Position numbers and translations under genes: made by a program. A stretch of DNA of 64,000 bases, taken from Streptomyces griseoviridis (GTDB lineage: Bacteria; Actinomycetota; Actinomycetes; Streptomycetales; Streptomycetaceae). Below are positions 1 to 15,654 of the stretch, piece after piece (position 1 is the first letter of the stretch; each line of letters opens with the position of its first letter). The stretch lies in the NCBI RefSeq assembly GCF_005222485.1, contig NZ_CP029078.1, forward strand, positions 3,376,001-3,440,000, given 5' to 3'. The notes below the pieces were generated by a model that was not told where the DNA came from, made no database searches, and saw nothing but the letters and a program-made list of their open reading frames with translations.

Positions 1-1778
1 AGGCCGCCGTCACCGCCGTCCTCGCGTTCGGCGTCACCTTCGTCATCGTCTCGGCGGGCATCGACCTGTCGGTCGGCTCGGTGGCCGCGCTGTCGGCGAC
101 CGTGCTCGCCTGGGGCGCCACCCAGCACGGGGTGCCCGTCGTCCTCGCGGTGGTCCTCGCCGTGCTCACCGGCACCGCGTGCGGCCTGGTCAACGGCTTC
201 CTGATCTCGTACGGGAAGCTGCCACCGTTCATCGCGACGCTCGCGATGCTGTCAGTGGCGCGCGGTCTGTCGCTGGTGATCTCCGGCGGTGTCCCGATCC
301 CGTTCCCCGACTCGGTCTCGCACCTCGGTGACACCCTCGGCGACTGGCTGCCGGTCCCGGTGCTGGTCATGGTGGTGATGGGGCTGATCGCCGCGTTCGT
401 GCTCGGCCGCACCTACATCGGCCGTTCCATGTACGCGATCGGCGGCAACGAGGAGGCCGCGCGCCTCTCCGGGCTGCGCGTCAAGCGGCAGAAGCTGGCG
501 ATCTACGCGCTGTCCGGTGTGTTCGCCGCCGTCGCGGGTGTCGTGCTCGCCGCCCGGCTCTCCTCCGCGCAGCCGCAGGCCGCCGACGGCTACGAACTCG
601 ACGCCATCGCCGCCGTCGTCATCGGCGGCGCCTCCCTCGCGGGCGGCACCGGCAAGGCGTCGGGCACCCTCATCGGCGCGCTGATCCTCGCGGTGCTGCG
701 CAACGGCCTCAACCTGCTGAACGTGTCGGCGTTCTGGCAGCAGGTCGTGATCGGTGTCGTGATCGCGCTCGCGGTGCTCCTCGACACGCTGCGCCGCAAG
801 GCCGGGGCGACCCCGGTGGCGGCCGGCACCGGCGGCGGCAAGGGCCGGCAGGCGGCGACGTACGGTCTCGCGGCCGTCGTCACGGTGACGATCGTCGGCG
901 CGACCTCCTTCCTGCACAACGGCTCCTCCGCGACGGCCGACCCGAAGATCGGCCTGTCGCTTTCCACCCTCAACAACCCGTTCTTCGTGCAGATCCGGGC
1001 GGGCGCCCAGGCCGAGGCCAAGAAGAAGGGCGTCGACCTGACCGTCACCGACGCCCAGAACGACGCCTCGCAGCAGGCCAACCAGCTCCAGAACTTCACC
1101 AGTTCGGGCCTCGACGCGATCATCGTCAACCCGGTGGACTCGGACGCGGCCGGCAACTCCGTGAAGGCCGCGGGCAAGGCGAAGATCCCGGTCGTCGCCG
1201 TCGACCGGGGCGTCAACCACGCCACCACGGCCACGCTGGTCGCCTCCGACAACGTCGCCGGCGGTGAACTCGCCGCGAAGACCCTCGCCGAGAAGCTCGG
1301 CGGCACCGGCAAGATCGTCATCCTCCAGGGCCAGGCGGGCACCTCCGCCGCCCGCGAGCGCGCCCAGGGCTTCGCCGCCGGGCTCAAGGCGTACCCCGGC
1401 ATCAAGGTCGTCGCGCAACAGCCCGCCGACTTCGACCGCACCAAGGGGCTCGACGTGATGTCGAACCTGCTCCAGTCCCACCCGGACGTGAAGGGTGTCA
1501 TCGCCGCCAACGACGAGATGGCGCTCGGCGCGATCAAGGCGCTCGGCGCCAAGGCGGGCGCCTCGGTGCCGGTGGTCGGCTTCGACGGCACGCCTGACGG
1601 CCTCACCGCCGTCAAGAAGGGCACGCTGTACGCGTCCGTCGCGCAGCAGCCCAGCCAGCTCGGCACGATGGCCGTGGACAACGCGCTCAAGGCCATCCGG
1701 GGCGAGAAGGTCGACGGGACGGTCAAGGTGCCGGTGAAGGTGGTCACCAAGGAGAACGTGGCCGGCTTCACCGGCTGA
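1..1778 (+). CDS. rbsCB: Ribose ABC transporter permease fused to substrate-binding protein (5' partial)
   Basis: The reading frame is already open at base 3, so the gene begins upstream of the window. The first ~270 visible residues are an RbsC-type permease: the GIDLSVGS motif near the start, several membrane segments, and the GGASLAGGTG loop. A short Gly/Ala linker and one extra hydrophobic segment (around bases 860-920) follow. The rest is an RbsB-type periplasmic-binding fold (IGLSLSTLNNPFF, then NPVDSDAAG and VGFDGTPDG). The extra membrane segment would place the binding domain outside the cell, tethered to its own permease. Separate rbsC and rbsB genes are usual; I recall the same fusion in S. 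coelicolor. rbsK and rbsD follow, which supports ribose as substrate. The ATPase gene should lie upstream. Confidence 0.9.
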   Translation, partial: AAVTAVLAFGVTFVIVSAGIDLSVGSVAALSATVLAWGATQHGVPVVLAVVLAVLTGTACGLVNGFLISYGKLPPFIATLAMLSVARGLSLVISGGVPIPFPDSVSHLGDTLGDWLPVPVLVMVVMGLIAAFVLGRTYIGRSMYAIGGNEEAARLSGLRVKRQKLAIYALSGVFAAVAGVVLAARLSSAQPQAADGYELDAIAAVVIGGASLAGGTGKASGTLIGALILAVLRNGLNLLNVSAFWQQVVIGVVIALAVLLDTLRRKAGATPVAAGTGGGKGRQAATYGLAAVVTVTIVGATSFLHNGSSATADPKIGLSLSTLNNPFFVQIRAGAQAEAKKKGVDLTVTDAQNDASQQANQLQNFTSSGLDAIIVNPVDSDAAGNSVKAAGKAKIPVVAVDRGVNHATTATLVASDNVAGGELAAKTLAEKLGGTGKIVILQGQAGTSAARERAQGFAAGLKAYPGIKVVAQQPADFDRTKGLDVMSNLLQSHPDVKGVIAANDEMALGAIKALGAKAGASVPVVGFDGTPDGLTAVKKGTLYASVAQQPSQLGTMAVDNALKAIRGEKVDGTVKVPVKVVTKENVAGFTG

Positions 1779-1848
1779 GCCGCCCCCGCCCGCCCTTGCC
1801 CCGCTTGCCCCCCCTTCCCTCGCTTCCCTCGCTTCCCAGGGAGTCCCC

Positions 1849-2832
1849 ATGTACGACTACGACCTGCTGGTCGTGGGATCGGCCAACGCCGATCTGGTCA
1901 TCGACGTCGAACGGCGCCCCGCCGCCGGTGAGACGGTGCTCGGCGGCGACCTCGCCGTCCACCCCGGCGGCAAGGGCGCCAACCAGGCCGTCGCCGCGGC
2001 CCGTCTCGGCGCGGCGACGGCGCTGCTGGCCCGGGTCGGCGACGACGGCCACGGGCGGCTGCTGATCGACTCGCTGCGGACGGCCGGCGTCGACACGGCG
2101 GGCGTCCTGGTGGGCGGGGCGCCGACCGGCGTCGCGCTGATCACCGTCGACCCGTCGGGCGACAACAGCATCGTGGTGTCGCCTGGCGCCAACGGCCGGC
2201 TGACACCCGAGGACGTGCGGGCGGCCGACGGCCTCCTCCGGACCTCGCGGGTCGTCTCGACGCAGTTGGAGATCCCGTTGGAGACGGTCGTGGAGGTCGT
2301 CAGGAGCCTGCCCGAGGGCGGCCGGTTCGTGCTGAACCCGTCGCCGCCGCGGCCGCTGCCGGGTGAAGTGCTCGCGGCCTGCGACCCGTTGATCGTCAAC
2401 GAGCACGAGGCGAAGGTCATCCTGGGCGACTCGGCCGCCGGGGACACCCCGGAGGACTGGGCGCGGCGGCTGCTCGCGGAGGGGCCGCGGTCGGTGGTCG
2501 TCACCCTGGGCGCGGAGGGGGCGCTGGTCGCGGAGACGCGGACGGAGACGGAGAGGCGGACGGACGAGTCCGGAGCCGGGGTCGGCGGCGGTGTCGGCGC
2601 TGTCGGTGGCGGTGTCGATGTCGAGGTGACGCGGGTGGCGTCGGTGCGGGTCGACGCCGTCGACACGACGGGCGCGGGGGACGCGTTCACGGCGGCGCTC
2701 GCCTGGCGGCTCGGCACCGGCGCGACCCTCGCGGAGGCGGCCGGGTACGCGGCGCGGGTCGGGGCGGCGGCGGTCACCCGGCGCGGGGCGCAGGAGTCGT
2801 TCCCGACCGGCGCCGAGGTCGAGGCGCTGTGA
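1849..2832 (+). CDS. rbsK: Ribokinase
   Basis: PfkB-family kinase that phosphorylates ribose to ribose 5-phosphate in the cytoplasm. The N-terminal half carries the sugar-binding GGKGANQAVAAARLG signature (about residues 42-56). The C-terminal signature DTTGAGDAF holds the catalytic aspartate. Just before it, at about residues 228-262, lies a low-complexity Thr/Glu/Arg then Gly/Val-rich insertion not typical of ribokinases; it falls between strands, so activity is probably kept. At 327 aa it is slightly longer than the usual ~300. The start ATG has an upstream CAGGGAG ribosome site. It lies 70 bp after the transporter and overlaps rbsD by 4 bp, so the three genes are probably one operon. Confidence 0.93.
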   Translation: MYDYDLLVVGSANADLVIDVERRPAAGETVLGGDLAVHPGGKGANQAVAAARLGAATALLARVGDDGHGRLLIDSLRTAGVDTAGVLVGGAPTGVALITVDPSGDNSIVVSPGANGRLTPEDVRAADGLLRTSRVVSTQLEIPLETVVEVVRSLPEGGRFVLNPSPPRPLPGEVLAACDPLIVNEHEAKVILGDSAAGDTPEDWARRLLAEGPRSVVVTLGAEGALVAETRTETERRTDESGAGVGGGVGAVGGGVDVEVTRVASVRVDAVDTTGAGDAFTAALAWRLGTGATLAEAAGYAARVGAAAVTRRGAQESFPTGAEVEAL

Positions 2833-3221
2833 GGCGGGCGGGCATCCTGAACCGTCATCTCGCGGGCGCCCTCGCGGAGTTGGGCCACGGGGACGGGGTG
2901 CTGGTGTGCGACGCCGGGATGCCGATACCGGACGGCCCGCGCGTGGTGGACCTCGCGTTCCGGGCCGGGGTACCGGCGTTCGCCGAGATCCTCGACGGGC
3001 TGCTCGCCGAGCTGGTCGTGGAGGGCGCGACGGCGGCGACCGAGGTGCGCGACGCCAACCCGGAGGCGGCGGCGCTGCTGGCGGGGCACTTTCCCGACAG
3101 CCTGTCGTTCGTGCCGCACGAACGGCTGAAGGAACTGTCGGCACGGACCCGGCTGGTGGTCCGCACGGGGGAGGCCCGACCGTACGCGAACGTGCTGCTG
3201 CGGTGCGGGGTGTTCTTCTAG
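2829..3221 (+). CDS. rbsD: D-ribose pyranase
   Basis: Interconverts the pyranose and furanose forms of ribose so that ribokinase receives the furanose. The 130-aa length fits the RbsD/FucU family. Visible family features are the N-terminal LNRHLAGALAELGHGD stretch, with the conserved histidine, and the DAGMPIP motif. The C-terminal RTGEARPYANVLLRCGV motif contributes the Tyr/Asn of the active site. Translation starts at a GTG that overlaps the rbsK stop (GTGA), implying translational coupling. A strong hairpin about 200 bp downstream (3422-3447) could end the operon. Confidence 0.92.
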   Translation: MRRAGILNRHLAGALAELGHGDGVLVCDAGMPIPDGPRVVDLAFRAGVPAFAEILDGLLAELVVEGATAATEVRDANPEAAALLAGHFPDSLSFVPHERLKELSARTRLVVRTGEARPYANVLLRCGVFF

Positions 3222-3421
3222 CCGACGGCGGGGAGGGGTGGGGCGGCTGGCGGGCGGACCGTCGGGCGCCGCACGGGTGACCGGCGGGTGGCTGACGGGC
3301 GCCTCACGGGCGCCTCACGGGTGACTGGGCGGGCGCCTGGCGGGCGGCTGTCGTGCTAGCCGGCGGAGGCCAGGTGCGCCGGCCTAGCAGGGGCGGGCGG
3401 CGAGGGCGCCGGCATGCGTCA

Positions 3422-3447
3422 GGGGCCCGGTCCGTCGACCGGGCCCC
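3422..3447 (+). terminator. Perfect 11-bp stem terminator downstream of rbsD
   Basis: GGGGCCCGGTC and GACCGGGCCCC form a perfect 11-bp stem around a CGTC loop, followed by a short T tract (TGCTTT). It separates the rbs operon from the next operon. The rest of the 3222-3589 gap is G-rich spacer with repeated GGGCGCCT-like runs; I see no gene there. Confidence 0.75.
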
Positions 3448-3589
3448 CGCTGCTTTCCCCTCCCCAGGACGTCTCCCGATCCCCCCGGATCCCCCTCCGA
3501 GACGTCCTGATGCCCAGTACGACAGGCGGGGTGGGGGGAGGGTTGTACGGGGAACCCGATTTTTTCGGGCCCGGCCGGCTGGACTCTTC

Positions 3590-3620
3590 TTGCGTGACCC
3601 ACGTCACAACTCGCTAGAAT
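3590..3620 (+). promoter_or_regulatory. Candidate promoter of the RLP operon
   Basis: TTGCGT (3590-3595) and TAGAAT (3615-3620) are separated by 19 bp and resemble a Streptomyces vegetative -35/-10 pair. Initiation would fall near 3626, leaving a leader of about 20 nt before the GTG at 3646. TGACCCACGTCA (TGAC-4-GTCA) lies between the two boxes and could be an operator. This is sequence resemblance only. Confidence 0.5.
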
Positions 3621-3645
3621 GCCATGGACCGTTGGGGAGCGCTTC

Positions 3646-4062
3646 GTGGATTCCGATCTCGCAGTACCGCTTCATGCTGTCAGCGTCACCGGCGTCGTCT
3701 TCAAGGACGACGGCCGTCTTCTGGTGATCAAGCGGGCGGACGACGGCACCTGGGTGCCCCCTGGCGGGCTGCTGGAAACGGACGAAGCGGTGGAGCGGGG
3801 AGTGGTCCGCGAGGTCTTCGAGGAGACCGGTGTCACCGTACGGCCCGTGAGGCTCACCGGCGTCTACAAGAACATCTCCCTTCGCACGATATCCATCGCC
3901 TTCCTCTGCCGTGCGGAGACGGGCGAACCCAGCGTCTCGGACGAGGCCGTGGACGTCAGGTGGATGACCCCGAAGGAGGCAGACGCCGTGCTGCCTCCGC
4001 TGCGTGCTCTCAGAGTGCGTGACGCGCTCGACCCGAACGGTCCGTTCGTCCGGTCCTACTGA
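3646..4062 (+). CDS. NUDIX hydrolase, first gene of RLP operon
   Basis: NUDIX-family pyrophosphohydrolase of 138 aa. The full NUDIX box is present (G41, E47, R55-E56, E59-E60, G62), so metal-dependent hydrolysis of a nucleoside diphosphate linked to another moiety is expected; the substrate cannot be read. I chose the GTG at 3646 because GGGGAG sits 6 bp upstream. An in-frame ATG at 3619 falls inside the apparent -10 box and would be upstream of the predicted transcript start. The stop lies 11 bp before the next gene. In this operon it may act on an activated nucleotide intermediate or be housekeeping; nothing in the sequence decides this. Confidence 0.85.
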   Translation: MDSDLAVPLHAVSVTGVVFKDDGRLLVIKRADDGTWVPPGGLLETDEAVERGVVREVFEETGVTVRPVRLTGVYKNISLRTISIAFLCRAETGEPSVSDEAVDVRWMTPKEADAVLPPLRALRVRDALDPNGPFVRSY

Positions 4063-4073
4063 CACGGTCGGAG

Positions 4074-4469
4074 GTGCGTACCACGTTCTACGCGCGCGTA
4101 CTGCGGATGCCCCTGCTGCTGATGGTCCTGGCCACTCTCGCCGTGCACGAGGGGACCGAGCGTCTCTCGATCAGCCGCGACCCCGACGTGATGGGGCTGC
4201 TCTCCCAGTTCGACGGCACGGCCACCACCGTCTTCGTGGCCCTGGCCACATTACGTACCTCGGTCAGATCCGGGACTCCGGAAGGAAGCGCGCGTATGTG
4301 GCGCCGCTCGGTACGGTTCCAGTTCGCGGCGGCGTTCGCACTCGCCGCGTTCGTCGTGGCGACCGCCGCGGCGCACTACACCGGCCTGGGCCCATGGGCC
4401 GTGGCCCTCAACGTCACCACGACAATCAGCGTGTTGTGGGCGCTCGTCGGCCCGATCGAGCCGGCATGA
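4074..4469 (+). CDS. Small integral membrane protein with TTA codon, RLP operon
   Basis: 131-aa protein that I do not recognise. Hydrophobic stretches at about residues 11-25, 49-60, 83-106 and 108-126 suggest three or four membrane helices. A basic, polar loop lies between the second and third. Codon 60 (bases 4251-4253) is TTA, the leucine codon read in Streptomyces by the developmentally regulated bldA tRNA. I noticed no other in-frame TTA in the window. Start choice is weak: GGAG abuts the GTG at 4074, and an in-frame ATG at 4107 is possible. Its stop overlaps the RLP start (ATGA), so failure to read the TTA could also reduce downstream expression. A role as transporter or membrane anchor is conjecture. 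Confidence 0.7.
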   Translation: MRTTFYARVLRMPLLLMVLATLAVHEGTERLSISRDPDVMGLLSQFDGTATTVFVALATLRTSVRSGTPEGSARMWRRSVRFQFAAAFALAAFVVATAAAHYTGLGPWAVALNVTTTISVLWALVGPIEPA

Positions 4470-5629
4470 CCCTGCGCCTGGAGTACGACCTCGCTCTCGG
4501 GCCGTCCTCGCACGTCGACCGGATCGTCGCCACCGTACGAGCCGGACTGCTGGCTCATCGGACCGACCGCCTGGCGGACATCGACATGACCTACCGGACG
4601 GACGCCCGTCAGGACGGGCTGAGGCTGTCCCTCAGCGTGGACCTCGAACTCGGCGACTTCGGGATGGCCGAGCGGGGTTCGGCGGGGCTGGTCGCCCTGC
4701 TCGGAGGCACGAGTTTCCGGGACCCCGCGATCAGGAACGTGACGCTCAGCGCGTTCGGCCCGCGTGGAAGCGATTCCTTCTTCCCCGGCCCGGTCCGCGG
4801 GACCGGTCTCCTGGAGGGGGCCGCCTCGCCCGCGCCCTGGCTCTCGGTACCCGTACCGAAGAGCGCGGCCAGCCAGTCCTGGAACGAGGTGAGCCGCACT
4901 CTGGTGCGGGCGGGAGTACAGGTCATCACCGACCTCAGTCTGAACGTGAACGACCAGGAACTGACCGCACGTGCCGCCGCCGTGGCCGAGGAAGCGACGA
5001 CGGCACGCCCCGTCGCGCTCTTCTTCAACGCGACGAGCAGACTTGAGTACGCGGTCAGGCTGGTCGAGAAGATCGCCACGACAGTGCAGCCCCGGACCCC
5101 CAACATCACCCTCGGAATCCGCCTGTGCCCGGTCGCCATGGGTTTCTCGGTCCTCGAGTACCTGCGTGCCTGGAACGTACCCATCTTCGCCTACACGCTC
5201 GCCTCCTACCCGTCGGGGCGTACCTCATGGAGCCAGTCGGCCTATGCCTCGATGATCCACGCCATGGGCGGCGACATCGTCAACGTCGGGCTGCTCAGCG
5301 TCCCCGCCCTGGAGAGCGGAACCCTCTACGAAGCCATCATGCCCCTGCTCAGCAGGGGGAACGGCGGAAAGGCCAGCCTGCCGGCGTTGACCGGGGGCGT
5401 CGAGCCGCGCGTCGCCTACGCCTACGCGGCCGCCGTCAACGATCCCGTGCTGCTCCACACCATGACCCCGGTCTTCCGAGGCGGCCTCGAACACCGAAGC
5501 ATCAGGAAACGGGTCAAGGCCATCCGCGAGGCGGTGGAGGCCGGGCGTCGGTCGCTGGACATCGAGCGCCTCTTCGCCGAGCGCAACTCCTCCGTGCGCA
5601 ACTGGCAGGAACTCGAAGAGGAAAGGTGA
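4466..5629 (+). CDS. Divergent RuBisCO-like protein (RLP), probably without carbamylation chemistry
   Basis: 387 aa. By eye it follows the RuBisCO large-subunit fold: an N-terminal alpha/beta domain (about 1-120), then a TIM barrel. Landmarks are PVPK at 129-132 (RuBisCO IKPK), TDLSLNVN at 155-162 (TKDDENVN), FFNAT around 186-190 (LNVTA), MGGDIVNVG at 267-275 (SGGDHIHSG) and LTGG at 308-311 (ASGG). In that alignment the carbamylated lysine becomes D156 and the metal ligands become S158 and L159. The first KPK lysine becomes V130, and the loop-6 lysine is absent. True carboxylase or the metal-dependent enolase chemistry of known RLPs is therefore unlikely. It starts at an ATG overlapping the previous stop. 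RLPs are normally found in sulfur salvage or sugar-acid pathways; this context is different. Confidence 0.8.
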   Translation: MTLRLEYDLALGPSSHVDRIVATVRAGLLAHRTDRLADIDMTYRTDARQDGLRLSLSVDLELGDFGMAERGSAGLVALLGGTSFRDPAIRNVTLSAFGPRGSDSFFPGPVRGTGLLEGAASPAPWLSVPVPKSAASQSWNEVSRTLVRAGVQVITDLSLNVNDQELTARAAAVAEEATTARPVALFFNATSRLEYAVRLVEKIATTVQPRTPNITLGIRLCPVAMGFSVLEYLRAWNVPIFAYTLASYPSGRTSWSQSAYASMIHAMGGDIVNVGLLSVPALESGTLYEAIMPLLSRGNGGKASLPALTGGVEPRVAYAYAAAVNDPVLLHTMTPVFRGGLEHRSIRKRVKAIREAVEAGRRSLDIERLFAERNSSVRNWQELEEER

Positions 5630-5639
5630 GAGAACCAGA

Positions 5640-6458
5640 GTGAACGACGGACGGCAGCACACGCAGAGAGAGCTGGGGGACGACGTGGATCAGCGCGCGG
5701 GCACACTCCATGTGCTGGGCAGCGGATCGGCCAGACCGAGCGCGGCGCGGGCGAACTCCTCGTACCTCGTCGAGGCCGCCGGTTCACTGCTGGCCGTCGA
5801 CTGCAGCGGCAGCCCCGTGCACGAGATCCTGCGCCGCGGTCTCGATCCCGGCGCTCTCCGCCATCTCCTCCTCACCCACGGCCACCCCGACCACGTCTAC
5901 GGGCTTCCCAGCCTGATCCACTCCCTGTGGATGCTGGGCCTGTTCACGGAGGAGCCGCTCACTGTCCACGGCACGCCGGAGACCCTCGGCGTCGGACGGT
6001 CGCTCCTCGCCGCCTTCGGGCTGGAGCAGCGGCGCAACGCTCCCCGCATCGAGTGGAGGCACGTCGAGCCGCACCGTCCCACCGAGTGCGAGGACATCGT
6101 GGAACTCGCCGTCGCCGCCTTCCCCGTCACCCATGGCGGCATGGAGGCCCTCGGCTACCGGGTGCTCAACACCGTGTTCTCCGGCGACGCCGTCTGCGAC
6201 GACCGGCTGGCGCGCGCGGTGGACGACTCCGCGCGGACACTCGTCGTCGACTGCGGCGGCGGACTGTCCGGGAACGCCGGGCACGCGGGCGCGACGGACA
6301 TCGCGGAACTCGTGCGCGAACGACCGGCGTTGGAGAGGGTCCTGCTGACGCACATCGGGTTCCCGGCCGCCGAGGAGACCGCGGTGCTGAGCGCGTTCCG
6401 CGGCTGCGGGGCCGAAGTCCGCGTCCTCGCGGACGGTGATCGCCTTGAACTCGTCTGA
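5640..6458 (+). CDS. Metallo-beta-lactamase-fold hydrolase (RNase Z-like), RLP operon
   Basis: 272-aa MBL-fold protein. The zinc motif HGHPDH (H80, H82, D84, H85) is intact. Later ligands are plausible at VTHGG (around 163-166), SGDAV (around 179) and LTHIG (around 239). The N-terminal GSGSARPSAARANSSYLV stretch resembles RNase Z/arylsulfatase-type MBL hydrolases that cleave phosphodiesters, sulfate esters or lactones. GTG 5640 is preceded by AAAGGTGAG; an in-frame GTG at 5685 with GGGGGA upstream would give 257 aa and is equally likely. It lies 10 bp after the RLP gene and overlaps the next by 23 bp. With a sulfotransferase next door, a sulfate-ester or phosphodiester substrate is attractive but unproven. 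Confidence 0.82.
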   Translation: MNDGRQHTQRELGDDVDQRAGTLHVLGSGSARPSAARANSSYLVEAAGSLLAVDCSGSPVHEILRRGLDPGALRHLLLTHGHPDHVYGLPSLIHSLWMLGLFTEEPLTVHGTPETLGVGRSLLAAFGLEQRRNAPRIEWRHVEPHRPTECEDIVELAVAAFPVTHGGMEALGYRVLNTVFSGDAVCDDRLARAVDDSARTLVVDCGGGLSGNAGHAGATDIAELVRERPALERVLLTHIGFPAAEETAVLSAFRGCGAEVRVLADGDRLELV

Positions 6459-7119
6459 TCCGACGGTCTTCTGCAGTATGGGCGGCTCAGGCTCGACGTA
6501 CCTGAGACATGCCCTGGGCCGGGCAGGGCTGGCCGTCCACAACAAGCCGGACATCGTGCACCACCGTCACTGGGTGAAGCAAGGCCGCGCAGCGCAACAC
6601 GCCGAGTTCATGCGGCGGGCCGACGGCTGCACGCTGGACACCACCGGTATCGCCGGCATACAGCGCTACCTCGACCGGCTCGCCTCGGCCCCGGCCACGA
6701 CGGCGGTCCTGAGCACCTGGGCCGAACAGCACCTTCTGCGGCACACCGGTCGACGACGTGTCGTCTTCCTCCTCCGTGAACCGGCCGCGGCCTACCGCTC
6801 GATGTGCGAGCCCGGTCGGCACGGAGACATCGCCGACGAGTACGGCGGTCCCGACTCCTGGTTCGCGGTCTTCTACGCGGAACGCTGGCGCAAGATCGCC
6901 GAGGAGTACCTGACGATGCGCGCGGCGGGTTGGGACGTCCTCCTGTGGTCCTACGAGCACCTGCCCGAGCATGCCCGCAGGGACGGCTACGGCGAGATCG
7001 TCACCGAGTGGCGGCGCTCCGCCCCTCGCCTGCGACCGGCGCTCCGGGACGAGACGATCGACCTGATCAGGCGATGCACGGGCGAGGTGCGCAAAGCCCT
7101 GGACATATCCGACTGGTGA
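6436..7119 (+). CDS. Sulfotransferase-family protein, RLP operon
   Basis: 227 aa with the layout of a PAPS-dependent sulfotransferase. A P-loop-like 5'-phosphosulfate-binding segment SMGGSGSTYL lies at 14-23. A 3'-phosphate-binding segment FLLREPAAAYRSM at 111-123 has the conserved Arg (R114) and Ser (S122). A WSYEHL motif is near 173-178. It would transfer a sulfuryl group from PAPS to a hydroxyl or amine of a small molecule. The start is the GTG at 6436, inside the end of the MBL gene, because the first downstream ATG (6478) would remove the residues before the P-loop. The family is diverse and the motif slightly unusual (GGSGS rather than PRSGT), so a related nucleotide-binding role remains possible. 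Confidence 0.72.
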   Translation: MIALNSSDPTVFCSMGGSGSTYLRHALGRAGLAVHNKPDIVHHRHWVKQGRAAQHAEFMRRADGCTLDTTGIAGIQRYLDRLASAPATTAVLSTWAEQHLLRHTGRRRVVFLLREPAAAYRSMCEPGRHGDIADEYGGPDSWFAVFYAERWRKIAEEYLTMRAAGWDVLLWSYEHLPEHARRDGYGEIVTEWRRSAPRLRPALRDETIDLIRRCTGEVRKALDISDW

Positions 7120-7131
7120 GAAGGAGCCGCC

Positions 7132-7875
7132 ATGGCCGCAGGGCCCTCAGTCATCGGCGATGTCGCGATCGGGAGACGGAACACCTTCGAGCACGGTGTG
7201 GTGATCTGCGGCCCCGCGTCCATAGGTGACGACAATTTCTTCGGCGCCTACTCCGTCATCGGCGGCCGGTGCCGCCAGGCCCATCGGCGGGACATCGCTC
7301 CCCAACGGACCGGAATGGTCCGCATCGGCGACGGCAACTACTTCGGCGAGCACTCCGTCGTGCACGGCCCGGTCGGCGACGCCACGGTGGTCCACGACCA
7401 CAGCTCGGTCGGGGCGGGAAGCCTGTTGGCCCATGACACCCGCGTCGGCTCCCACGTCACCGTGTCGGTCAACTGCACCGTGGGAGGCCACGGCGTCCTG
7501 CTCGACTGGAGTGGGCTCGGCATCGGGTGCACGCTGCACCCCCGCACCGTCATGGGTCACTGGTCCTACGCCGGCATGGCAGCCGTGGTCACCCGCACCG
7601 TGCGCCCGGGGCACCTCGTGATCGGCAGTCCCGCGCGCCTCCTCCGCCCGAACTACGAGGCGTTCGTCCGATCCGGTCTCGACGCCGCCTCGCTGGCCCA
7701 GCTCCGTGCGTTCCTCGATACCGGGGAGGTGCCGGACGGGCCCTCGCCGGTCTCTCGTGCCGTGACCGAATTCGAGGCCGCGGTGGCACGGACGATCAGG
7801 AACCGGGTGCTGCGCAGTTGGTCGGACGTGGATTCGGAACGGTCACGCGTGATCGCCCATGACCCACGCTCCTGA
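7132..7875 (+). CDS. LpxA-like left-handed beta-helix acyltransferase, RLP operon
   Basis: 247 aa. Hexapeptide repeats ([IVL]G-x4) run from about residue 7 to 165 and form a left-handed beta-helix. The overall pattern is closest to UDP-GlcNAc O-acyltransferase LpxA, including an LLAHDTRVG segment (H101, D102) that matches the LpxA catalytic histidine region, and GSPARLL closing the helix. LpxA itself uses acyl-ACP. Gram-positive bacteria do not make lipid A, so here it probably acylates another substrate such as an amino sugar. A helical C-terminal extension of ~80 residues follows. A strong AGAAGGAG ribosome site precedes the ATG; the end overlaps the next gene by 17 bp. Confidence 0.83.
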   Translation: MAAGPSVIGDVAIGRRNTFEHGVVICGPASIGDDNFFGAYSVIGGRCRQAHRRDIAPQRTGMVRIGDGNYFGEHSVVHGPVGDATVVHDHSSVGAGSLLAHDTRVGSHVTVSVNCTVGGHGVLLDWSGLGIGCTLHPRTVMGHWSYAGMAAVVTRTVRPGHLVIGSPARLLRPNYEAFVRSGLDAASLAQLRAFLDTGEVPDGPSPVSRAVTEFEAAVARTIRNRVLRSWSDVDSERSRVIAHDPRS

Positions 7876-9061
7876 CCCGGTCGGTCGGCCGATGCCGTTG
7901 TGGCTCGCCGCCCGCTACGTGTGCGGCCCGCACCGCGGCCACCTGACCCCGGCCACGGCGCCGCGCTTGAGCTGGGGAGCCGTCGTCACCGCGACGACCG
8001 GCCCGGGAGGCGCGGGCCGGGCGCTGCGCTCCTTGCTCTACGGCGTGCGCGGCGCGGCGGACGTGTGGCGTCACCGTCGGACGATCAGTGACGACCATGT
8101 GGTCCTCGACGCGGTGGTCCTGGCGCTCCGGACGAGTTGCGACAGCCGCGACATCATGGCCCTGCGCCGGTGCGGGCGACCGGACCTCGACGCCTTGCGC
8201 GGTGTGGTGCCCAGAGCGCGCCGGGCCGAACACCGTGACTGGAACAACTGTGCCGTGGCAGCCGCTCTGGTCAACGACAAGGCGGAGTGCAACCGACGTC
8301 TTGAGGCGGCGGACATCAAGGTCCCGCGCCAGTCCCTGATCCCTCCGGTGACCCGCGTCTGGACACCGGACGGGGGCGGGGCACGGCAGGTCCTGGAGTT
8401 CTGTCACGCGGACATCGCACCCGGCACCCTCTGTGTCCTGAAGGACCGCCACGGATTGCAGGGCGAGTCCGTGTGGGCGGCCCGCGCGTGCCGTGAGCCG
8501 CCGGCGGGGAGTCATGCGGCGCTGCGGGAACTGGTGCGCGGCGGCCGGCTCGTCGCTGAGGAACGGCTGCGGCCGCAGGACTGGTTCGCCGAGGCCGGCG
8601 ACACCGCCCTGCCGACCATGCGGGTGGTCACTTCCCGGCTCAGGGGACGCACGGAGGTGGTGGGAATGGTTCTTTTCCGTGGCGGGCCGGGTGCCGTCGC
8701 GGCCAATCGCAGACAGGGCGGCACCGCGCACCTGGTCGGCAAAGACGGTTCCTGTGGGAACGGGCTTGACGCACAGGGCACGGACCGAGGCCCATGCGCC
8801 TATGTGCTTCCGCCCCGTTGGGCGACGGCGATGCGCGAGATGTGTCTCAGGGCTCATCGACTGTTTCCGTGTCTCGGCTCGGTCGGCTGGGACGTGGGGC
8901 TGTCGGAGCGGGGTCCCGTCCTGTTGGAAGGCAACCCGAACTGGGGAATGAACGTGCCGCAGTTGATGCCGGGGCGACCCATGCTGGAGGAGTTCAGGCA
9001 GACCCGTCTTCGGGACACCTGGCGGAGCGGGCCAGGACCGCAGAAGGAGGGCCGGCCGTGA
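7859..9061 (+). CDS. ATP-grasp ligase, sugar-transfer-associated type, RLP operon
   Basis: 400 aa. The C-terminal GWDVGLSERGPVLLEGNPNWG-like segment (about residues 345-365) is the magnesium/ATP-binding end of an ATP-grasp domain. It best fits the family called sugar-transfer-associated ATP-grasp (PF14397). The mid-region VLKDRHGLQGESVW resembles the ATP-clamping part, and NDKAECNRRLEAADIKVP near 133-150 matches the segment preceding the lid. Such enzymes activate a carboxylate and join it to an amine or similar nucleophile. ATG 7859 lies inside the end of the acyltransferase gene; ATG 7892 is an alternative. It is coupled to the following GNAT gene by GTGA. A ligase next to two acyl-transferring enzymes suggests assembly of an amide- or ester-decorated small molecule. 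Confidence 0.78.
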   Translation: MTHAPDPVGRPMPLWLAARYVCGPHRGHLTPATAPRLSWGAVVTATTGPGGAGRALRSLLYGVRGAADVWRHRRTISDDHVVLDAVVLALRTSCDSRDIMALRRCGRPDLDALRGVVPRARRAEHRDWNNCAVAAALVNDKAECNRRLEAADIKVPRQSLIPPVTRVWTPDGGGARQVLEFCHADIAPGTLCVLKDRHGLQGESVWAARACREPPAGSHAALRELVRGGRLVAEERLRPQDWFAEAGDTALPTMRVVTSRLRGRTEVVGMVLFRGGPGAVAANRRQGGTAHLVGKDGSCGNGLDAQGTDRGPCAYVLPPRWATAMREMCLRAHRLFPCLGSVGWDVGLSERGPVLLEGNPNWGMNVPQLMPGRPMLEEFRQTRLRDTWRSGPGPQKEGRP

Positions 9062-9666
9062 AGGGAGCCGACCTGCGCATAGCCAGACTCGACGATCCAC
9101 GGTCGAGCGCCTTTCTCGCTTTCACCCGTCGGGCCACGCTCGACAGCCTCACCGCTCTGCGATCGATCCGCCGGACCGCCCCGGGGCAGACCTGCCTCTG
9201 CGCCTGGTACCGGGGCGAGGTGATCGGCTGTACCTCCTGGCACCAGAGGCGCAAGCTCGACTACACGGACCTGGACGGAGCACCCGCCCACATCACGAGC
9301 GTGTACCTGTGTTCGTCCGAAGTCCTGCCGGAGTTCCGTGGGAGGGGTGTGGGCGGTCTGCTCTACGAACGACGACTCACCGAATGCGGCGGCGACAACC
9401 GACCCGTCGCCGTCGAGATCCTGGGCCGCGGAACTCCTCTGTCCGTGGCCGACGATGCCTGGGCGGGCCTCGTCTGGCACCTCACCCGTGGCTTTCTGAT
9501 CGTCGGACACAGCAATGACGAGGACGCCGGTCCCGTACTGGCCCGTCGCTCCTCGGCGTTCTGCGTGGCCCCTGGTGCCCGATGTCGAACGCGTCATCTT
9601 CTGAACGGATTTGAACGGCACACCATCGCCACAGCTCGCCGCACGGTCACGAGCAGGGAAGAGTGA
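9058..9666 (+). CDS. GNAT-family N-acetyltransferase, last gene of RLP operon
   Basis: 202-aa GNAT-fold protein. The acetyl-CoA pyrophosphate-binding motif A is visible as LPEFRGRGVGGLLYERRL (about residues 91-108). It is preceded by a beta strand ending in ITSVYLCSSE. The N-terminal half has a WYRGEVIGCTSW strand typical of the fold. It probably acetylates an amine of the pathway intermediate or product. The start is a GTG overlapping the ligase stop, with an AGGAGGG site upstream. I recognise no closer subfamily. It ends the run of eight genes whose gaps are all 11 bp or less or overlaps. An AT-richer spacer follows. Confidence 0.8.
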   Translation: MKGADLRIARLDDPRSSAFLAFTRRATLDSLTALRSIRRTAPGQTCLCAWYRGEVIGCTSWHQRRKLDYTDLDGAPAHITSVYLCSSEVLPEFRGRGVGGLLYERRLTECGGDNRPVAVEILGRGTPLSVADDAWAGLVWHLTRGFLIVGHSNDEDAGPVLARRSSAFCVAPGARCRTRHLLNGFERHTIATARRTVTSREE

Positions 9667-10013
9667 TGCCATTCGCGATCAGTCCGTAACGACTTGAGCG
9701 CATTCGATGTCATCCCCAGGGTGTGATTTACGCAACGTGCGTCACGGGAACTGACACGCCGTAGTTTGGCCAACCGCGGCAAAAGCGCTGGCAGTTGCCT
9801 TGATCGCCACATACGTGGCATGCCGACCGCCCGGTTGGGCACGCCGTGCCACCCACGCACGCCCCGGACACCCCCAGGCCCGCGGCGCCCACACCGTGGC
9901 CGACGGTGCCGCCGGGTACTGTGTGGGGCTATCACCGCTCCTCTGAGGGTCCGCGACTACGGCGTGGACGCCCCGCGGGGTTCACGAACGTGGACCAGAA
10001 AGGGGGCGGCCCG
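9667..10013. other. Intergenic stretch with small inverted repeats
   Basis: About 350 bp without a convincing gene, less GC-rich than its surroundings. It contains two short inverted repeats: ACGCA-ACG-TGCGT (9730-9742) and GCCAC-ATAC-GTGGC (9806-9819). Either could be an operator for the small gene at 10014. No tRNA fold or attachment-site remnant was recognised. Confidence 0.4.
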
Positions 10014-10133
10014 ATGGCCGCACAGCCAGAGGGACACCAGAACACCACAGCGGACAAGATGTACCGTCGCGCCCGCTGGCTCGGACCGATCTTCATGATC
10101 TACAAGATCGTGCGTGAGTTCCTGAGCCACTAA
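10014..10133 (+). CDS. 39-residue basic, hydrophobic-tailed protein
   Basis: A very short gene preceded by AAAGGGGGC 7-8 bp before the ATG. The product has a polar N-terminal third (MAAQPEGHQNTTADK), a basic patch (MYRRAR), a hydrophobic segment (WLGPIFMIYKIV) and a REFLSH tail. This could be a small membrane-associated protein. A 6-bp GC hairpin (GCCCCG/CGGGGC, around 10143-10164) follows within 10 bp of the stop. The clean ribosome site, the compositional change from basic to hydrophobic, and the hairpin suggest a real gene. The family is unknown to me. Confidence 0.55.
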   Translation: MAAQPEGHQNTTADKMYRRARWLGPIFMIYKIVREFLSH

Positions 10134-10503
10134 AGGGAGCAGCCCCGACCCGAAGGCCGGGGCGCACCCGATCTGGTGTTGCCAGAGGGCCTCATCTCTG
10201 CATGCTTGGCGGCTTCGGAGATGGGGCTCTCGCCTTGTTCTGCGCAACGGCCCCCATCTTGCCCTGCTCTCAAGATCCTTCGCGACACTTGCGCGCCGGT
10301 TGGACCATAAGCGGGGTCTTCGGTTCCGGTCCGCATTTCAGCGTTCGACCTGCTCAGAAAATTCGTGCCCATGTGAAAGTGACGCAAGTCATAACTGAAA
10401 GCGTGACGCACAGCACACCATACTGTCCGATTCGCCCAGGTCTACTGACGCGTAAGCCCGGTGCCCGGTGGAGCGGCGGAAATCGTACAGGACGGCACTG
10501 ACA
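10134..10503. other. Intergenic stretch with hairpin and GTGACGCA repeats
   Basis: Nearly 370 bp with no convincing protein. An imperfect hairpin pairs GCCTCATCTC (from about 10188) with GAGATGGGGC (to about 10229). GTGACGCA occurs twice (10379-10386 and 10403-10410), each just after GAAA, 24 bp apart, upstream of a possible TACTGT -10 box near 10430. This could be a promoter region or an untranslated RNA; neither is established. Confidence 0.35.
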
Positions 10504-10533
10504 ACCCGGCCCCGCCAGCCACCGGGGCCGGGT
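10504..10533. terminator. 11-bp stem terminator at the 3' end of the sugar operon
   Basis: ACCCGGCCCCG and CGGGGCCGGGT form a perfect 11-bp stem with an 8-nt loop. It lies about 40 bp beyond the stop of the minus-strand isomerase gene and could also stop transcripts arriving from the left. Confidence 0.75.
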
Positions 10534-10575
10534 CGCATCGCCCCTTCGCGGAGGGAACGCGATGCACAGACCTCG

Positions 10576-11412
10576 TCAGGGCCGCGTGTGCGCCCTGAAG
10601 CGGTCCGTCGTTTCTGTCAGGACCTCTCGGCCGTCCCTCGCCCACAGGCCGTCGTTGAAGAGTTCCACCTCGATCGCGCCGGTGTACCCGGCCGCCTCCA
10701 CCAGTTCCTGCCAGGCGCGCATGTCGATCGCGCCGTCGCCGATCTGGCCCCGGCCGTTGAGGACGCCCTCGGGCAACGGGGTTGTCCAGTCCGCGAGTTG
10801 GAAGGTGTGGATGCGGTTGCCCGCGCCCGCTCGGGCGATCTGGGCGGGGGCCTGGTCGTCCCACCAGATGTGGTACGTGTCCACCGTGACGCCGACCTGG
10901 TGGGCCGGGAAGCGCTCCGCGATGTCCAGGGCCTGGGCGAGGGTGGAGACCACGCAGCGGTCCGAGGCGTACATCGGGTGCAGGGGTTCGATGGCGAGCC
11001 GTACGCCGTGCTCCTCGGCGTACGGGCCCAGTTCGGCCAGCGCGTCCGCGATCCGCTCGCGGGCGCCCGGCAGGTCCTTGGAGCCGGCCGGGAGGCCGCC
11101 GGAGACCAGGACCAGGGTGTCGGTGCCGAGGGCGGCGGCCTCGTCGACGGCCCGCTTGTTGTCGGCGACGGCCGTGGCCCGTTCGGCCGGGGAGATCGCC
11201 GTCAGGAAGCCGCCCCGGCACAGCGTCGTGACGGTCAGGCCCGCGTCGCGCACCAGCTTCGCCGCCGCCTCCACGCCGTACGCCTGGACCGGCTCGCGCC
11301 ACAGGCCGACCTGGGTGACACCCAACGCCTCGCAGGCGTCGGCCAGTTCGGGCAGGGACAGCTGCTTGACCGTCATCTGGTTGATGGAGAAGCGTTCGAG
11401 ACCGGTGCTCAC
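10576..11412 (-). CDS. Sugar phosphate isomerase/epimerase (TIM barrel)
   Basis: 278-aa AP-endonuclease-2-type TIM barrel. Metal-site features are visible: the AIEPLHP strand (Glu), the VTVDTYHIWW segment (Asp, His), HTFQLADW (His) and IEVELFN (Glu). This fits the IolE/IolI/hydroxypyruvate isomerase superfamily acting on sugars or inososes. The start is a GTG (complement 11410-11412) overlapping the stop of the upstream DUF993 gene, so the two are translationally coupled. With a DUF993 protein and a Gfo/Idh/MocA dehydrogenase in the same operon, oxidation then isomerisation of an unusual sugar or cyclitol is likely; the substrate is unknown. Confidence 0.85.
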   Translation of the reverse strand: MSTGLERFSINQMTVKQLSLPELADACEALGVTQVGLWREPVQAYGVEAAAKLVRDAGLTVTTLCRGGFLTAISPAERATAVADNKRAVDEAAALGTDTLVLVSGGLPAGSKDLPGARERIADALAELGPYAEEHGVRLAIEPLHPMYASDRCVVSTLAQALDIAERFPAHQVGVTVDTYHIWWDDQAPAQIARAGAGNRIHTFQLADWTTPLPEGVLNGRGQIGDGAIDMRAWQELVEAAGYTGAIEVELFNDGLWARDGREVLTETTDRFRAHTRP

Positions 11413-12560
11413 TGGTTCACCCCGTACAGCGACAGCAGGTTCCTCATCCGCTCCTCGGCCAGCTTCGGGTCGGGGAACAGGCCGAGTCCGTCGGCGAGTT
11501 CGTAGGCGCGCGCCAGGTGCGGCAGGGAGCGCGCCGACTGGAGGCCGCCGACCATCGTGAAGTGCGTCTGGTGTCCGGCCAGCCAGGCCAGGAAGACCAC
11601 GCCCGTCTTGTAGAAGCGGGTCGGCGCCTGGAAGAGGTGGCGGGACAACTCGACCGTCGGATCGAGGAGTTCGCGGAACCCCGCGGTGTCCCCGGTGTCC
11701 AGGACGCGGACCGCCTCGGCGCCCAGCGGACCCAGCGGGTCGAAGATGCCGAGCAGGGCGTGGCTGAAGCCCTGCTCGTCGCCCGCGATCAGCTCCGGGT
11801 AGTTGAAGTCGTCGCCGGTGTAGCAGCGCACGCCCTGCGGCAGCCGGCGGCGCAGCTCCACCTCGCGCCCGGCGTCGAGGAGCGAGACCTTGATGCCGTC
11901 GACCTTGTCCGGGTGGGCGGCGATGACGTCGAGGAAGGTGTCGGTCGCCGTGTCCAGGTCCGAGGAGCCCCAGTAGCCGTCGAGGGCCGGGTCGAACATC
12001 GGGCCGAGCCAGTGCAGGACGACCGGTCCGTCCGCCTGCCGCAGGAGGTGACCGTAGACCTCCAGGTAGTCCTCGGGTCCGGTGGCCGCGGCCGCCAGCG
12101 CCCTGGACGCCATCAGGATGGCCTGCGCGCCGGACTCCTCGACGAGCGCGAGCTGCTCCTCGTAGGCGGCCCGCACCTCGGCGAGGGTGCCCGCGGTCAG
12201 CTGGTCGGTGCCGACGCCGCAGGCGATCCGGCCGCCGGACGCCTTCGCCTCGGCGGCGCTGCGGCGGATCAGCTCGGCGGCGGTCGGCCAGTCGAGGCCC
12301 ATGCCGCGCTGGGCGGTGTCCATGGCCTCGGCGACCCCGAGGCCGTGCGACCAGAGGTGGCGGCGGAAGGCGAGGGTGGCGTCCCAGTCGACGGCGGCCG
12401 GTCCGTCGGGGGTGGTGTCGGCGAACGGGTCGGCGACGACATGGGCCGCCGAGAAGACCGTGCGGGAGGTGAAGGGGGCGCCGGGGGTGAGGGCGAGCGG
12501 CTCGGGGCGGGGCTCGTAGCTCCGCAACGTGCCGTCGGTGCCCGGGAGTCGGAGGGTCAC
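11409..12560 (-). CDS. DUF993 family protein (aldolase-like)
   Basis: 383 aa. It matches the actinobacterial DUF993 family, distantly related to dihydrodipicolinate-synthase-type aldolases. Recognisable parts are the FSAAHVVADPF opening, RIACGVGTDQL, the WLGPMFDPALDGYWG stretch, and DGIKVSLLDA, whose lysine lies where a Schiff-base lysine would be expected. It sits between the dehydrogenase (4-bp overlap upstream) and the isomerase (4-bp overlap downstream). A retro-aldol or related lyase step in sugar catabolism is reasonable, but no family member's reaction is known to me. Confidence 0.82.
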   Translation of the reverse strand: MTLRLPGTDGTLRSYEPRPEPLALTPGAPFTSRTVFSAAHVVADPFADTTPDGPAAVDWDATLAFRRHLWSHGLGVAEAMDTAQRGMGLDWPTAAELIRRSAAEAKASGGRIACGVGTDQLTAGTLAEVRAAYEEQLALVEESGAQAILMASRALAAAATGPEDYLEVYGHLLRQADGPVVLHWLGPMFDPALDGYWGSSDLDTATDTFLDVIAAHPDKVDGIKVSLLDAGREVELRRRLPQGVRCYTGDDFNYPELIAGDEQGFSHALLGIFDPLGPLGAEAVRVLDTGDTAGFRELLDPTVELSRHLFQAPTRFYKTGVVFLAWLAGHQTHFTMVGGLQSARSLPHLARAYELADGLGLFPDPKLAEERMRNLLSLYGVNQ

Positions 12561-13708
12561 AGCGTGATCTCCGGGACGTCGAGGCGGCGGCCCTCGGTGG
12601 ACGACTTAAGCCCCAGCTCGGCGAGTTGGACGCCACGGGCGCCGGCCAGCAGGTCCCAGTGGTAGGGCGCGTCGGCGTAGACGTGCCGCAGGAACAGCTC
12701 CCACTGCGCCTTGAAGCCGTTGTCGAACTCCTCGTTGTCCGGGACCTCCTGCCACTGGTCGCGGAAGGAGTAGGTGGCCGGGATGTCGGGGTTCCAGACC
12801 GGCTTGGGGGTCAGAGTGCGGTGCTGGACACGGCAGTTGCGCAGTCCAGCGACGGCCGAGCCCTCGGTGCCGTCGACCTGGAACTCGACGAGTTCGTCGC
12901 GGTTGACGCGCACCGCCCAGGAGGAGTTGATCTGCGCGATGGCGCCGCCGTCGAGTTCGAAGATGCCGTAGGCGGCGTCGTCGGCGGTCGCGTCGTAGGG
13001 CTTGTCGTCCTCGTCCCAGCGCTGCGGGATGTGGGTGGTGGCGATGGCCTGGACGGACTTCACCCGGCCGAACAGCTCGTGCAGCACGTACTCCCAGTGC
13101 GGGAACATGTCGACGACGATGCCGCCGCCGTCCTCCGCGCGGTAGTTCCAGGACGGGCGCTGGGCGCTCTGCCAGTCGCCCTCGAAGACCCAGTAGCCGA
13201 ACTCGCCGCGCACCGACAGGATCCGGCCGAAGAAGCCGCCGTCGATGAGGCGCTTGAGCTTGAGCAGGCCAGGCAGGAACAGCTTGTCCTGCACGACGCC
13301 GTGCTTGATGCCGGCCGCGTCGGCGAGCCTGGCCAGTTCCAGGGCGCCGTCGAGGCCGGTGGCGGTGGGCTTCTCGGTGTAGAGGTGCTTGCCCGCGGCG
13401 ATGGCCTTGGTGAGCGCTTCCTCACGGGCGGAGGTGACCTGGGCGTCGAAGTAGATCTCGACGGTCGGGTCGGCGAGGACCGCGTCGAGGTCGGTCGAGA
13501 CGTGCTCGATGCCGTGCCGCTCGGCGAGCGCGCGCAGGGCGTGCTCGCGGCGGCCGACCAGCACCGGTTCGGGCCACAGCACGGTGCCGTCGCCGAGGTC
13601 GAGGCCACCCTGTTCGCGGATGGCCAGGATGGAGCGGACCAGGTGCTGGCGGTAGCCCATGCGTCCGGTCACGCCGTTCATGGCGATCCGCACCGTCTTG
13701 CGTGTCAC
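12557..13708 (-). CDS. Gfo/Idh/MocA-family NAD(P)-dependent oxidoreductase
   Basis: 383 aa. The N-terminal Rossmann domain begins VRIAMNGVTGRMGYRQH, and the EKPTA motif (about residues 118-122) is the family hallmark that places the catalytic lysine. The C-terminal alpha/beta domain contains GGGIVVDMFPHWEY. These enzymes oxidise a hydroxyl of a sugar or inositol using NAD(P). The start is the GTG at complement 13706-13708, preceded by GAAGGGAA. It is the first gene of a three-gene minus-strand operon (oxidoreductase, DUF993, isomerase), divergent from a LacI-type regulator. An AAGCGCTT palindrome lies about 85 bp upstream, so control by that regulator is likely. Confidence 0.88.
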   Translation of the reverse strand: MTRKTVRIAMNGVTGRMGYRQHLVRSILAIREQGGLDLGDGTVLWPEPVLVGRREHALRALAERHGIEHVSTDLDAVLADPTVEIYFDAQVTSAREEALTKAIAAGKHLYTEKPTATGLDGALELARLADAAGIKHGVVQDKLFLPGLLKLKRLIDGGFFGRILSVRGEFGYWVFEGDWQSAQRPSWNYRAEDGGGIVVDMFPHWEYVLHELFGRVKSVQAIATTHIPQRWDEDDKPYDATADDAAYGIFELDGGAIAQINSSWAVRVNRDELVEFQVDGTEGSAVAGLRNCRVQHRTLTPKPVWNPDIPATYSFRDQWQEVPDNEEFDNGFKAQWELFLRHVYADAPYHWDLLAGARGVQLAELGLKSSTEGRRLDVPEITL

Positions 13709-13786
13709 GTCATTCCCTTCGCAGGTGTCGTACACAGCGTTGTACGCGGTGTGCGTGCCGCGTTCGCCCTCCTGATGAGCGTCACA

Positions 13787-13799
13787 GCAAGCGCTTTCT
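13787..13799. promoter_or_regulatory. Candidate LacI-family operator (AAGCGCTT core)
   Basis: The palindrome AAGCGCTT (13789-13796) sits in a GCAAGCGCTTTC context, typical of LacI/GalR-family operators with a central CG. It lies between the sugar operon and the divergent LacI-type gene, close to where a promoter for the minus-strand operon would be. Confidence 0.6.
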
Positions 13800-13916
13800 A
13801 TGTAAGGAGAAGCTAGCCTCTGAACAGTGGTCCGGACAAGACCGTGACCGCTTCGAGTTGTTCGAGGGGACGAACGGGCGGGCGCGGGGGCCGTAAGGTC
13901 TGCTCGGGGCGGCGGG

Positions 13917-14240: not shown

Positions 14241-14317
14241 GGAGGGTCCTGGCGGGCCCACGACGAGCAGAGGCACAACGAGGTGCGACGAGAGATGCGC
14301 GACCGGAGGACGACGAG

Positions 14318-15373: not shown

Positions 15374-15453
15374 CGCCTTCGGCCGATGTGACGGGGGTGT
15401 GGGGCGGCGCCTGACGGGGCCGGCGGCGCTCGGAGCAGGCGGGGCCGGGTGCC

Positions 15454-15509: not shown

Positions 15510-15654
15510 GCCGGGCCGCTGTGCCGGCGGGCCACCGTGTCGCCGGGCGGTGATCAGGGCGTCGGCGGGAGTCGGTGCCGCGGGACAGCCGTGCGCCGAC
15601 CGGCGCCAGGTGCGGTGGGGGCCGCTGGGCCGATCGGCGTGTGGGGCGGGGTCG

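Follow-up and report, generated by a model that had tools for sequence, protein, structure and literature searches.

Enolisation in the RuBisCO superfamily rests on metal- and carbamate-binding residues, which in RuBisCO itself comprise the carbamylated Lys201 and the metal ligands Asp203 and Glu204. The relatives of RuBisCO studied so far are described in PMC6404388 as enolases, isomerases and transcarboxylases. A RuBisCO-like protein (RLP) encoded in the 64,000-nucleotide stretch of Streptomyces griseoviridis DNA analysed in this work (hereafter, the window) is 14 and 18% identical to two form IV RLPs, the 2,3-diketo-5-methylthiopentyl-1-phosphate enolase MtnW (2zvi) and the Burkholderia fungorum RLP (3nwr), respectively, and differs from them in the replacement of the carbamate lysine and of both metal carboxylates and in lacking any match to the Pfam RuBisCO families. 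Compared with the form III archaeal RuBisCO of Pyrococcus horikoshii (2cwx), it keeps only K177, G380, G381 and G404 among the mapped catalytic and ligand-binding positions, with S379 replaced by Thr. The operon in which its gene lies resembles Streptomyces specialised-metabolite clusters in being compact, patchily distributed, transferable and endowed with a TTA codon, but it has no polyketide, peptide-synthetase or glycosyltransferase core, and its combination of families was not found described in openly licensed PubMed Central papers. The same literature yielded no described pathway with this gene set, in agreement with the preliminary description of the locus.

The operon comprises genes for a NUDIX hydrolase, a small membrane protein, the RLP, a metallo-beta-lactamase (MBL)-fold hydrolase, a sulfotransferase-like protein, an LpxA-like acyltransferase, an ATP-grasp ligase and a GNAT N-acyltransferase. 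All eight were located at the place previously given, on the + strand, tightly spaced and in one direction, with intergenic gaps of 10, 11 and 12 bp and overlaps at the remaining junctions; the 12 bp gap, which precedes the LpxA-like gene, is a trivial departure from the 11 bp or less reported earlier. Pfam families were matched above cut-off by five of the products, but not by the membrane protein, the RLP or the sulfotransferase-like protein, and Pfam likewise bore out the reported absence of polyketide, peptide-synthetase and glycosyltransferase genes among the eight.

The RLP gene (4466..5629, +) encodes a protein that has the RuBisCO fold but lacks the metal ligands of RuBisCO. Its assignment to the superfamily proved correct, even though the protein is invisible to Pfam and NCBIfam: none of the 11 RLP members matched the Pfam RuBisCO families at E-values up to 1, a search of the whole genome with PF00016 gave nothing at E up to 0.001, the protein was not recognised by NCBIfam and PDB sequence searches returned nothing useful. 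The evidence for the fold comes from a full-length structural match to RuBisCO, encompassing the N-terminal alpha/beta domain and the TIM barrel, and from a profile-profile comparison that scored 55.7 against 23.6 for the best of 40 column-shuffled controls. A probability of 90.7 was obtained in this comparison only with the joint set of 27 RuBisCO-type sequences; it fell to 72.5 with 17 of them alone and to 0.2 with the other ten, labelled form-I-like by score and by eye. Eleven members of the family were found, and a second, profile-based search returned the same 11, with the 7996 candidates sharing most words being scored in both searches; among the members is a Nocardiopsis algeriensis protein (P0011) that could not be placed in its genome. 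A weak match in genome G288 (E 8e-4), bearing one internal stop, was not counted as a member. The RLP is under strong purifying selection (dN/dS 0.12 and 0.16), and its gene is truncated in one lineage in which six other operon genes are still open.

Residues were compared with 27 of 30 RuBisCO-type loci, all from the phylum of the window, after setting aside L047 (no long frame) and L048 and L049 (second matches of genomes already used). The comparison sequences keep the carbamate lysine (27/27), the aspartate (27/27) and the glutamate (26/27), whereas the positions of Lys201, Asp203 and Glu204 are occupied by T155, L157 and S158 in 11/11 RLP members. The equivalents of K175, H294 and H327 are V/I130, Y243 and N273, H327 being itself variable (13/27 comparison sequences), and a glycine within a phosphate loop has also been replaced. 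K132 and T309-G310-G311 occupy the positions of K177 and S379-G380-G381, respectively, and E60, T65, N123, R295 and loop-6 K334 have no mapping to the RLP in the profile alignment. Among the 11 RLP members, 11/13 mapped active-site positions are invariant, compared to 160/387 overall (P 0.0016). The replaced residues led us to reject a RuBisCO-type carboxylase or a Mg-dependent enolase and make enolisation of the RuBisCO or MtnW type unlikely, so that the earlier suggestion of an enol step supplied by the RLP is not supported. With the metal-holding parts lost, the RLP may perform new chemistry or none, and both a reaction that needs no metal and a role outside catalysis have to be weighed.

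The NUDIX gene (3646..4062, +; GTG start; Pfam NUDIX 74.9 bits) encodes a NUDIX box that, by its usual definition, is complete in the 6/6 loci compared. The frame is also open from an ATG further upstream, at 3619, and the longer form also aligns in L004, but 3646 is the favoured start: this residue is where the L005 and L050 matches begin, and the L006 match begins one residue before it. The membrane-protein gene (4074..4469, +; start codon uncertain) encodes about three hydrophobic segments, as judged from hydropathy, was found in 6/6 loci and matches no NCBIfam family above cut-off. The MBL-fold hydrolase (5640..6458, +; Pfam Lactamase_B 54.2 bits) is RNase Z/PhnP-like, with a best E of 7.1e-11 against RNase Z structures and the HxHxDH motif intact, as it is wherever the MBL gene itself is unbroken (5 loci); at 79.8 bits it falls below the Ribonuclease Z equivalog cut-off of 292.95, while reaching that of the MBL fold family itself. 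For the sulfotransferase-like protein (6436..7119, +), a sulfotransferase fold is supported and sequences fitting the usual 5'- and 3'-phosphate-binding motifs of PAPS sulfotransferases are present. The window's own protein has no Pfam match, and a PDB sequence search with the sulfotransferase profile returned nothing useful; this assignment was borne out more weakly than that of the RLP.

Streptomyces is Gram-positive and is not known to make lipid A. The LpxA-like left-handed beta-helix protein (7132..7875, +; Pfam Hexapep 50.1 bits) matches LpxA-type structures with a best E of 4.1e-18, and has in common with the UDP-GlcNAc O-acyltransferase LpxA the beta-helix and the start of the C-terminal part, but its 76.5 bits lie below the NCBI equivalog cut-off of 226. 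Comparison to the catalytic and UDP-pocket residues of Pseudomonas aeruginosa LpxA, as named in PMC7072397, revealed that it keeps the catalytic histidine and 3/4 named UDP-pocket residues, with His at the positions of H121, H140 and H156 and conservation of N194, E196 and R200 (P. aeruginosa numbering); Gln157 and Arg201 are replaced by Pro and Ser. The H140 position, corresponding to the second pocket histidine, is Tyr in the Herbidospora copy. The ATP-grasp ligase (7859..9061, +) belongs to the "sugar-transfer associated" family ATPgrasp_ST (PF14397; 68.2 bits, gathering score 31.4) and the GNAT N-acyltransferase (9058..9666, +) to Acetyltransf_1 (26.8 bits, cut-off 20.7); PDB sequence searches with both returned nothing useful.

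The same eight genes were identified in the same order in five further loci (L004, L005, L006, L050 and Herbidospora L085), with a deletion in L006 and with the Herbidospora copy residing in another family than that of the window. Co-occurrence in six loci led to the rejection of chance adjacency, and the scattering of the genes in other genomes, named beforehand as grounds for refutation, was not borne out. Of the eight proteins, the RLP has the highest identity to its Herbidospora counterpart (65%); the values are 53% for the membrane protein, 50% for the ATP-grasp ligase and 47% for the GNAT protein. The occurrence of the operon is very patchy. Signals for the ATP-grasp gene came from 12 genomes, but 9/12 were not counted as operon copies because their matches reach 28-34% identity and are not accompanied, within about 1.5 kb, by any further gene of the operon at E up to 1e-3.

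The eight genes appear to form a horizontally moving unit. A block at 3588..9547 (+), which marks the module ends, is shared (blastn, 78.5% over 6000 columns) with Streptomyces G895 (L050), in whose genome it occupies a different site, and comparison of window positions 1-16000 with 19.5 kb of L050 revealed no other match above 80 columns. Since this block is the only DNA in common and the Herbidospora matches also fall within it, the module appears to travel alone; the Herbidospora copy is flanked by ORFs that read, by eye, as transposase- and recombinase-like. In the window and L004 the operon has rbsKD on one side and iol-like genes on the other; it adjoins iol-like genes in L005 and rbsKD in L006. 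A pattern scan detected a terminator-like hairpin just upstream of the module, at the end of the rbsKD unit (3540..3557, +). In Streptomyces G661 (L088), rbsD is directly followed by an iol-like gene, and similarity to the window ends at 3565 and resumes at 10609. Because of this empty site a resident core locus was rejected, and the view that the block interrupts a core region is supported. Third-position GC also behaves as claimed, averaging 0.843 in the eight genes versus 0.935 in 34 flanking ORFs that were picked automatically and may include a few in the wrong frame. The proposed acquisition of the operon, as one co-inherited unit, is supported.

TTA codons can serve as control points for bldA in Streptomyces. 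Codon 60 of the membrane-protein gene (4251..4253, +), a candidate bldA control point, is TTA in the window, L004, L005 and L050 (4/5 Streptomyces copies), CTG in L006 and CTT in Herbidospora. It is the only TTA among 205 leucine codons of the operon, and none occurs among 1480 leucine codons in 35 flanking ORFs (the former 34 plus rbsD), also when six doubtful ORFs are omitted. The codon pattern indicates that the operon is probably bldA-gated.

The order kept in six loci, the purifying selection and the intact catalytic motifs of the NUDIX, MBL and LpxA-like enzymes form the basis for a biosynthetic reading. The LpxA-like enzyme would acylate a sugar linked to a nucleotide, or a molecule of that sort, the NUDIX enzyme could cut a nucleotide diphosphate link and the MBL enzyme might hydrolyse an ester or phosphodiester. 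Amide formation and N-acylation would fall to the ATP-grasp and GNAT proteins and sulfate transfer from PAPS to the sulfotransferase, and the membrane protein may provide export or protection. The RLP would act on a sugar-like intermediate with neither metal nor carbamate, its likeliest activity being that of an isomerase, lyase or epimerase, and the product would be a sulfated, acylated, amide-bearing sugar-type metabolite. Of the acylated, possibly sulfated small metabolite originally envisaged, the acyl-transfer and probably the sulfo-transfer steps are upheld, while the product class is something we infer. We consider the chances evenly balanced that this operon is biosynthetic, moves horizontally, is probably gated by bldA and yields such a product, with the RLP acting through a remodelled pocket. 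More tentatively, and with the balance tipping against it, the RLP could represent a metal- and carbamate-free branch of the RuBisCO superfamily, to our knowledge the first, carrying out new chemistry on a sugar-like intermediate within a transferable, developmentally gated operon for a sulfated acylated metabolite of an undescribed class.

A biosynthetic operon could also employ the RLP as a non-enzymatic scaffold, carrier or regulator binding an intermediate or partner. The replacement of the three metal ligands, of the K175 and H294 equivalents and of a phosphate-loop glycine is consistent with this role, as is the truncation of its gene beside six open ones, but strong purifying selection, the invariance of 11/13 mapped active-site positions and the presence of K132 and T309-G310-G311 at the K177 and S379-G380-G381 positions argue against it, and we regard it as improbable, if worth keeping in view. 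Less probable still is that the target of the operon is a lipid or polysaccharide in the producer's own cell envelope and not a released metabolite: its very patchy occurrence, its TTA codon and the lack of a glycosyltransferase among the eight genes speak against such a role, despite the LpxA-like, ATPgrasp_ST and membrane proteins belonging to envelope-type families.

An anti-phage or conflict system, built from hydrolases and a membrane effector and carried on a mobile island, would account for the mobility, for the DruA-like gene near the L050 copy and for the match of the NUDIX protein to a candidate PADLOC family. The other seven proteins, however, have no PADLOC match at E up to 0.01, searches of viral contigs with the RLP and the sulfotransferase and of plasmids with the RLP returned no relatives, and we know of no defence logic accommodating four transferase- or ligase-like genes, making this a very remote prospect. 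Just as little weight attaches to a role in degrading or salvaging a sugar in concert with the adjoining rbs and iol genes. Adjacency to rbsKD and/or iol-like genes holds in the window, L004, L005 and L006, but no rbsK or rbsD match was found in the L050 stretch or in the Herbidospora stretch, which there covers 2.7 kb upstream on the contig; the transferases are of biosynthetic type and the terminator-like hairpin separates the operon from rbsD. Methionine-salvage and apiose-breakdown pathway genes were likewise absent among the eight conserved genes according to Pfam and NCBIfam.

The preferred reading, a mobile biosynthetic operon with a remodelled RLP, portrays a biosynthetic unit that is small, has sharp limits and lacks a classical core enzyme; software that finds clusters by their polyketide or peptide-synthetase genes would probably miss it. 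For the RuBisCO superfamily, the preservation of the whole fold with replaced metal ligands under strong purifying selection makes metal-free catalysis on an ancient scaffold directly testable.

The operon stands on an 8.96 Mb Streptomyces chromosome and comprises eight genes, all on the + strand, which overlap or stand 10-12 bp apart. It is flanked on the left by rbsK-rbsD (1849-3221) and on the right by iol-like genes, which start at 10579 on the opposite strand, and its mean GC3 is 0.843 versus 0.935 in the flanks. NUDIX, Lactamase_B, Hexapep, ATPgrasp_ST and GNAT families were detected above the Pfam cut-off, and no Pfam family passed it for genes 2, 3 and 5; none of the NCBIfam families listed reached its cut-off (best ≤25 per operon protein). 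In the openly licensed PubMed Central literature, no paper describing this eight-gene set was found. Two neighboring ORFs were also observed. The gap separating the operon from the iol-like genes holds a 39-residue, membrane-peptide-like ORF (by eye; 10014-10133, + strand) with 87% conservation in L004, and in front of rbsK-rbsD a single ORF (81-1778) carries a periplasmic binding protein domain fused to an ABC sugar-permease domain (BPD_transp_2).

The same gene order was identified in Streptomyces sp. SolWspMP-5a-2 (L004), S. aurantiacus (L005), S. fuscichromogenes (L006), Streptomyces G895 (L050) and Herbidospora (G1134, L085; H. mongoliensis RuBisCO-like protein (RLP) P0010). In S. fuscichromogenes a deletion joins RLP residues 1 to ~134 to the second half of the metallo-beta-lactamase-fold protein in a single ORF (L006:10001-10783), and the six remaining operon genes are open. 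RLP and sulfotransferase relatives also appear paired in T028, bgisy034, CWNU-52B and NPDC001634 and on two metagenome contigs, six additional assemblies in all, which is consistent with the same operon. The sulfotransferase search traced no match to the Nocardiopsis RLP assembly, a result carrying little weight given that it equally missed Herbidospora, where the gene is present.

The RLP is rare: 297 genomes from the family to which the window belongs yielded two clear matches (G000, G286), 394 from its class yielded one (G000), and 341 from the family of G364, presumably Streptosporangiaceae, also yielded one. One further weak match in the window's family was not counted (L003, Streptomyces G288; E 8e-4, 38% over 81 residues, one stop) and may be a chance hit or a remnant. 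The ATP-grasp search returned three strong matches (G000, G286, G895; E below 1e-178) in 392 genomes of the genus, and nine more genomes matching at 28-34% identity. The rbs/iol site is shared on at least one side by the window, L004, L005 and L006, and in an empty site from another Streptomyces (L088) similarity ends at 3565 and restarts at 10609. Compared with window positions 1-16000, L050 shares only 3588-9547. Around the G895 copy (L050:4661-6556 and 15275-17449) lie a DruA-like (Druantia) gene and, upstream, a SulP transporter adjoined by a carbonic-anhydrase-like ORF (by eye); ORFs adjoining the Herbidospora copy are transposase- and recombinase-like (by eye).

The RLP (4466..5629) matches P0002 of S. 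griseoviridis at 99%. In a profile alignment of its family with 27 RuBisCO-type proteins of the phylum (spinach numbering), every comparison sequence has K175, K201, D203 and H294, and all but one have E204; the RLP family, which has lost the metal ligands (K201, D203, E204), carries V/I130, T155, L157, Y243 and S158, respectively, at these positions. The H327 position is His in 13/27 and N273 in the RLP family, K177 is Lys in 10/27 and corresponds to K132, G403 corresponds to R338, and S379-G380-G381 reads T-G-G. The sole exception at E204 is an actinobacterial protein (L046) with His (KDDH). E60, T65, N123, R295 and K334 were unmapped. Among the 13 positions that could be mapped, 11 show no variation within the RLP family, compared with 160 of the 387 columns as a whole (P 0.0016 by a hypergeometric test that ignores relatedness and burial). 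NG86 dN/dS values were 0.042/0.336 against L004 and 0.095/0.607 against L050, and identity to the Herbidospora copy is highest for the RLP among the eight genes (65%; remaining genes 47-61%). It follows that the RLP is neither decaying in the lineages compared nor a standard RLP. Enolase, isomerase and transcarboxylase activities have been described for RLPs (PMC6404388; PMC6302742).

Leucine is encoded 205 times in the operon copy of the window, and only once by TTA (4251-4253), in the membrane-protein gene (gene 2); no TTA was found among 1480 leucine codons in 35 flanking ORFs. The tRNA that decodes TTA in Streptomyces is the product of bldA and constitutes a developmental gate. L004, L005 and L050 share this TTA with the window, L006 has CTG and Herbidospora CTT. 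L050 carries further TTA codons in the RLP gene (codon 3) and the ATP-grasp gene (codon 353), L006 has one in the RLP gene (codon 52), and the Herbidospora copy has them at 15 places. Because the four TTA-bearing copies keep the same codon at only 49/94 conserved amino-acid positions, and at 7/12 leucines, the retention of this rare TTA is a suggestive, candidate sign of bldA control, short of proof. The putative start of the gene (4074-4090) is a GTG immediately after GGAG, which is replaced by GGA in S. aurantiacus; in Herbidospora an ATG lies two codons on.

Several roles can be considered for this gene set. The RLP could be an inactive scaffold, and the operon as a whole could serve in envelope modification, act as a defence island or have a sugar-salvage role. 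The presence of an LpxA-like acyltransferase, NUDIX, ATP-grasp and GNAT proteins and a probable sulfotransferase (gene 5), together with the absence of a chain-building enzyme, makes tailoring of a small metabolite the simplest reading. Under the tailoring reading, the RLP would act in a metal-free pocket on a sugar-type core, perhaps nucleotide-linked, which the other operon enzymes would convert into a sulfated, acylated, amide-bearing metabolite.
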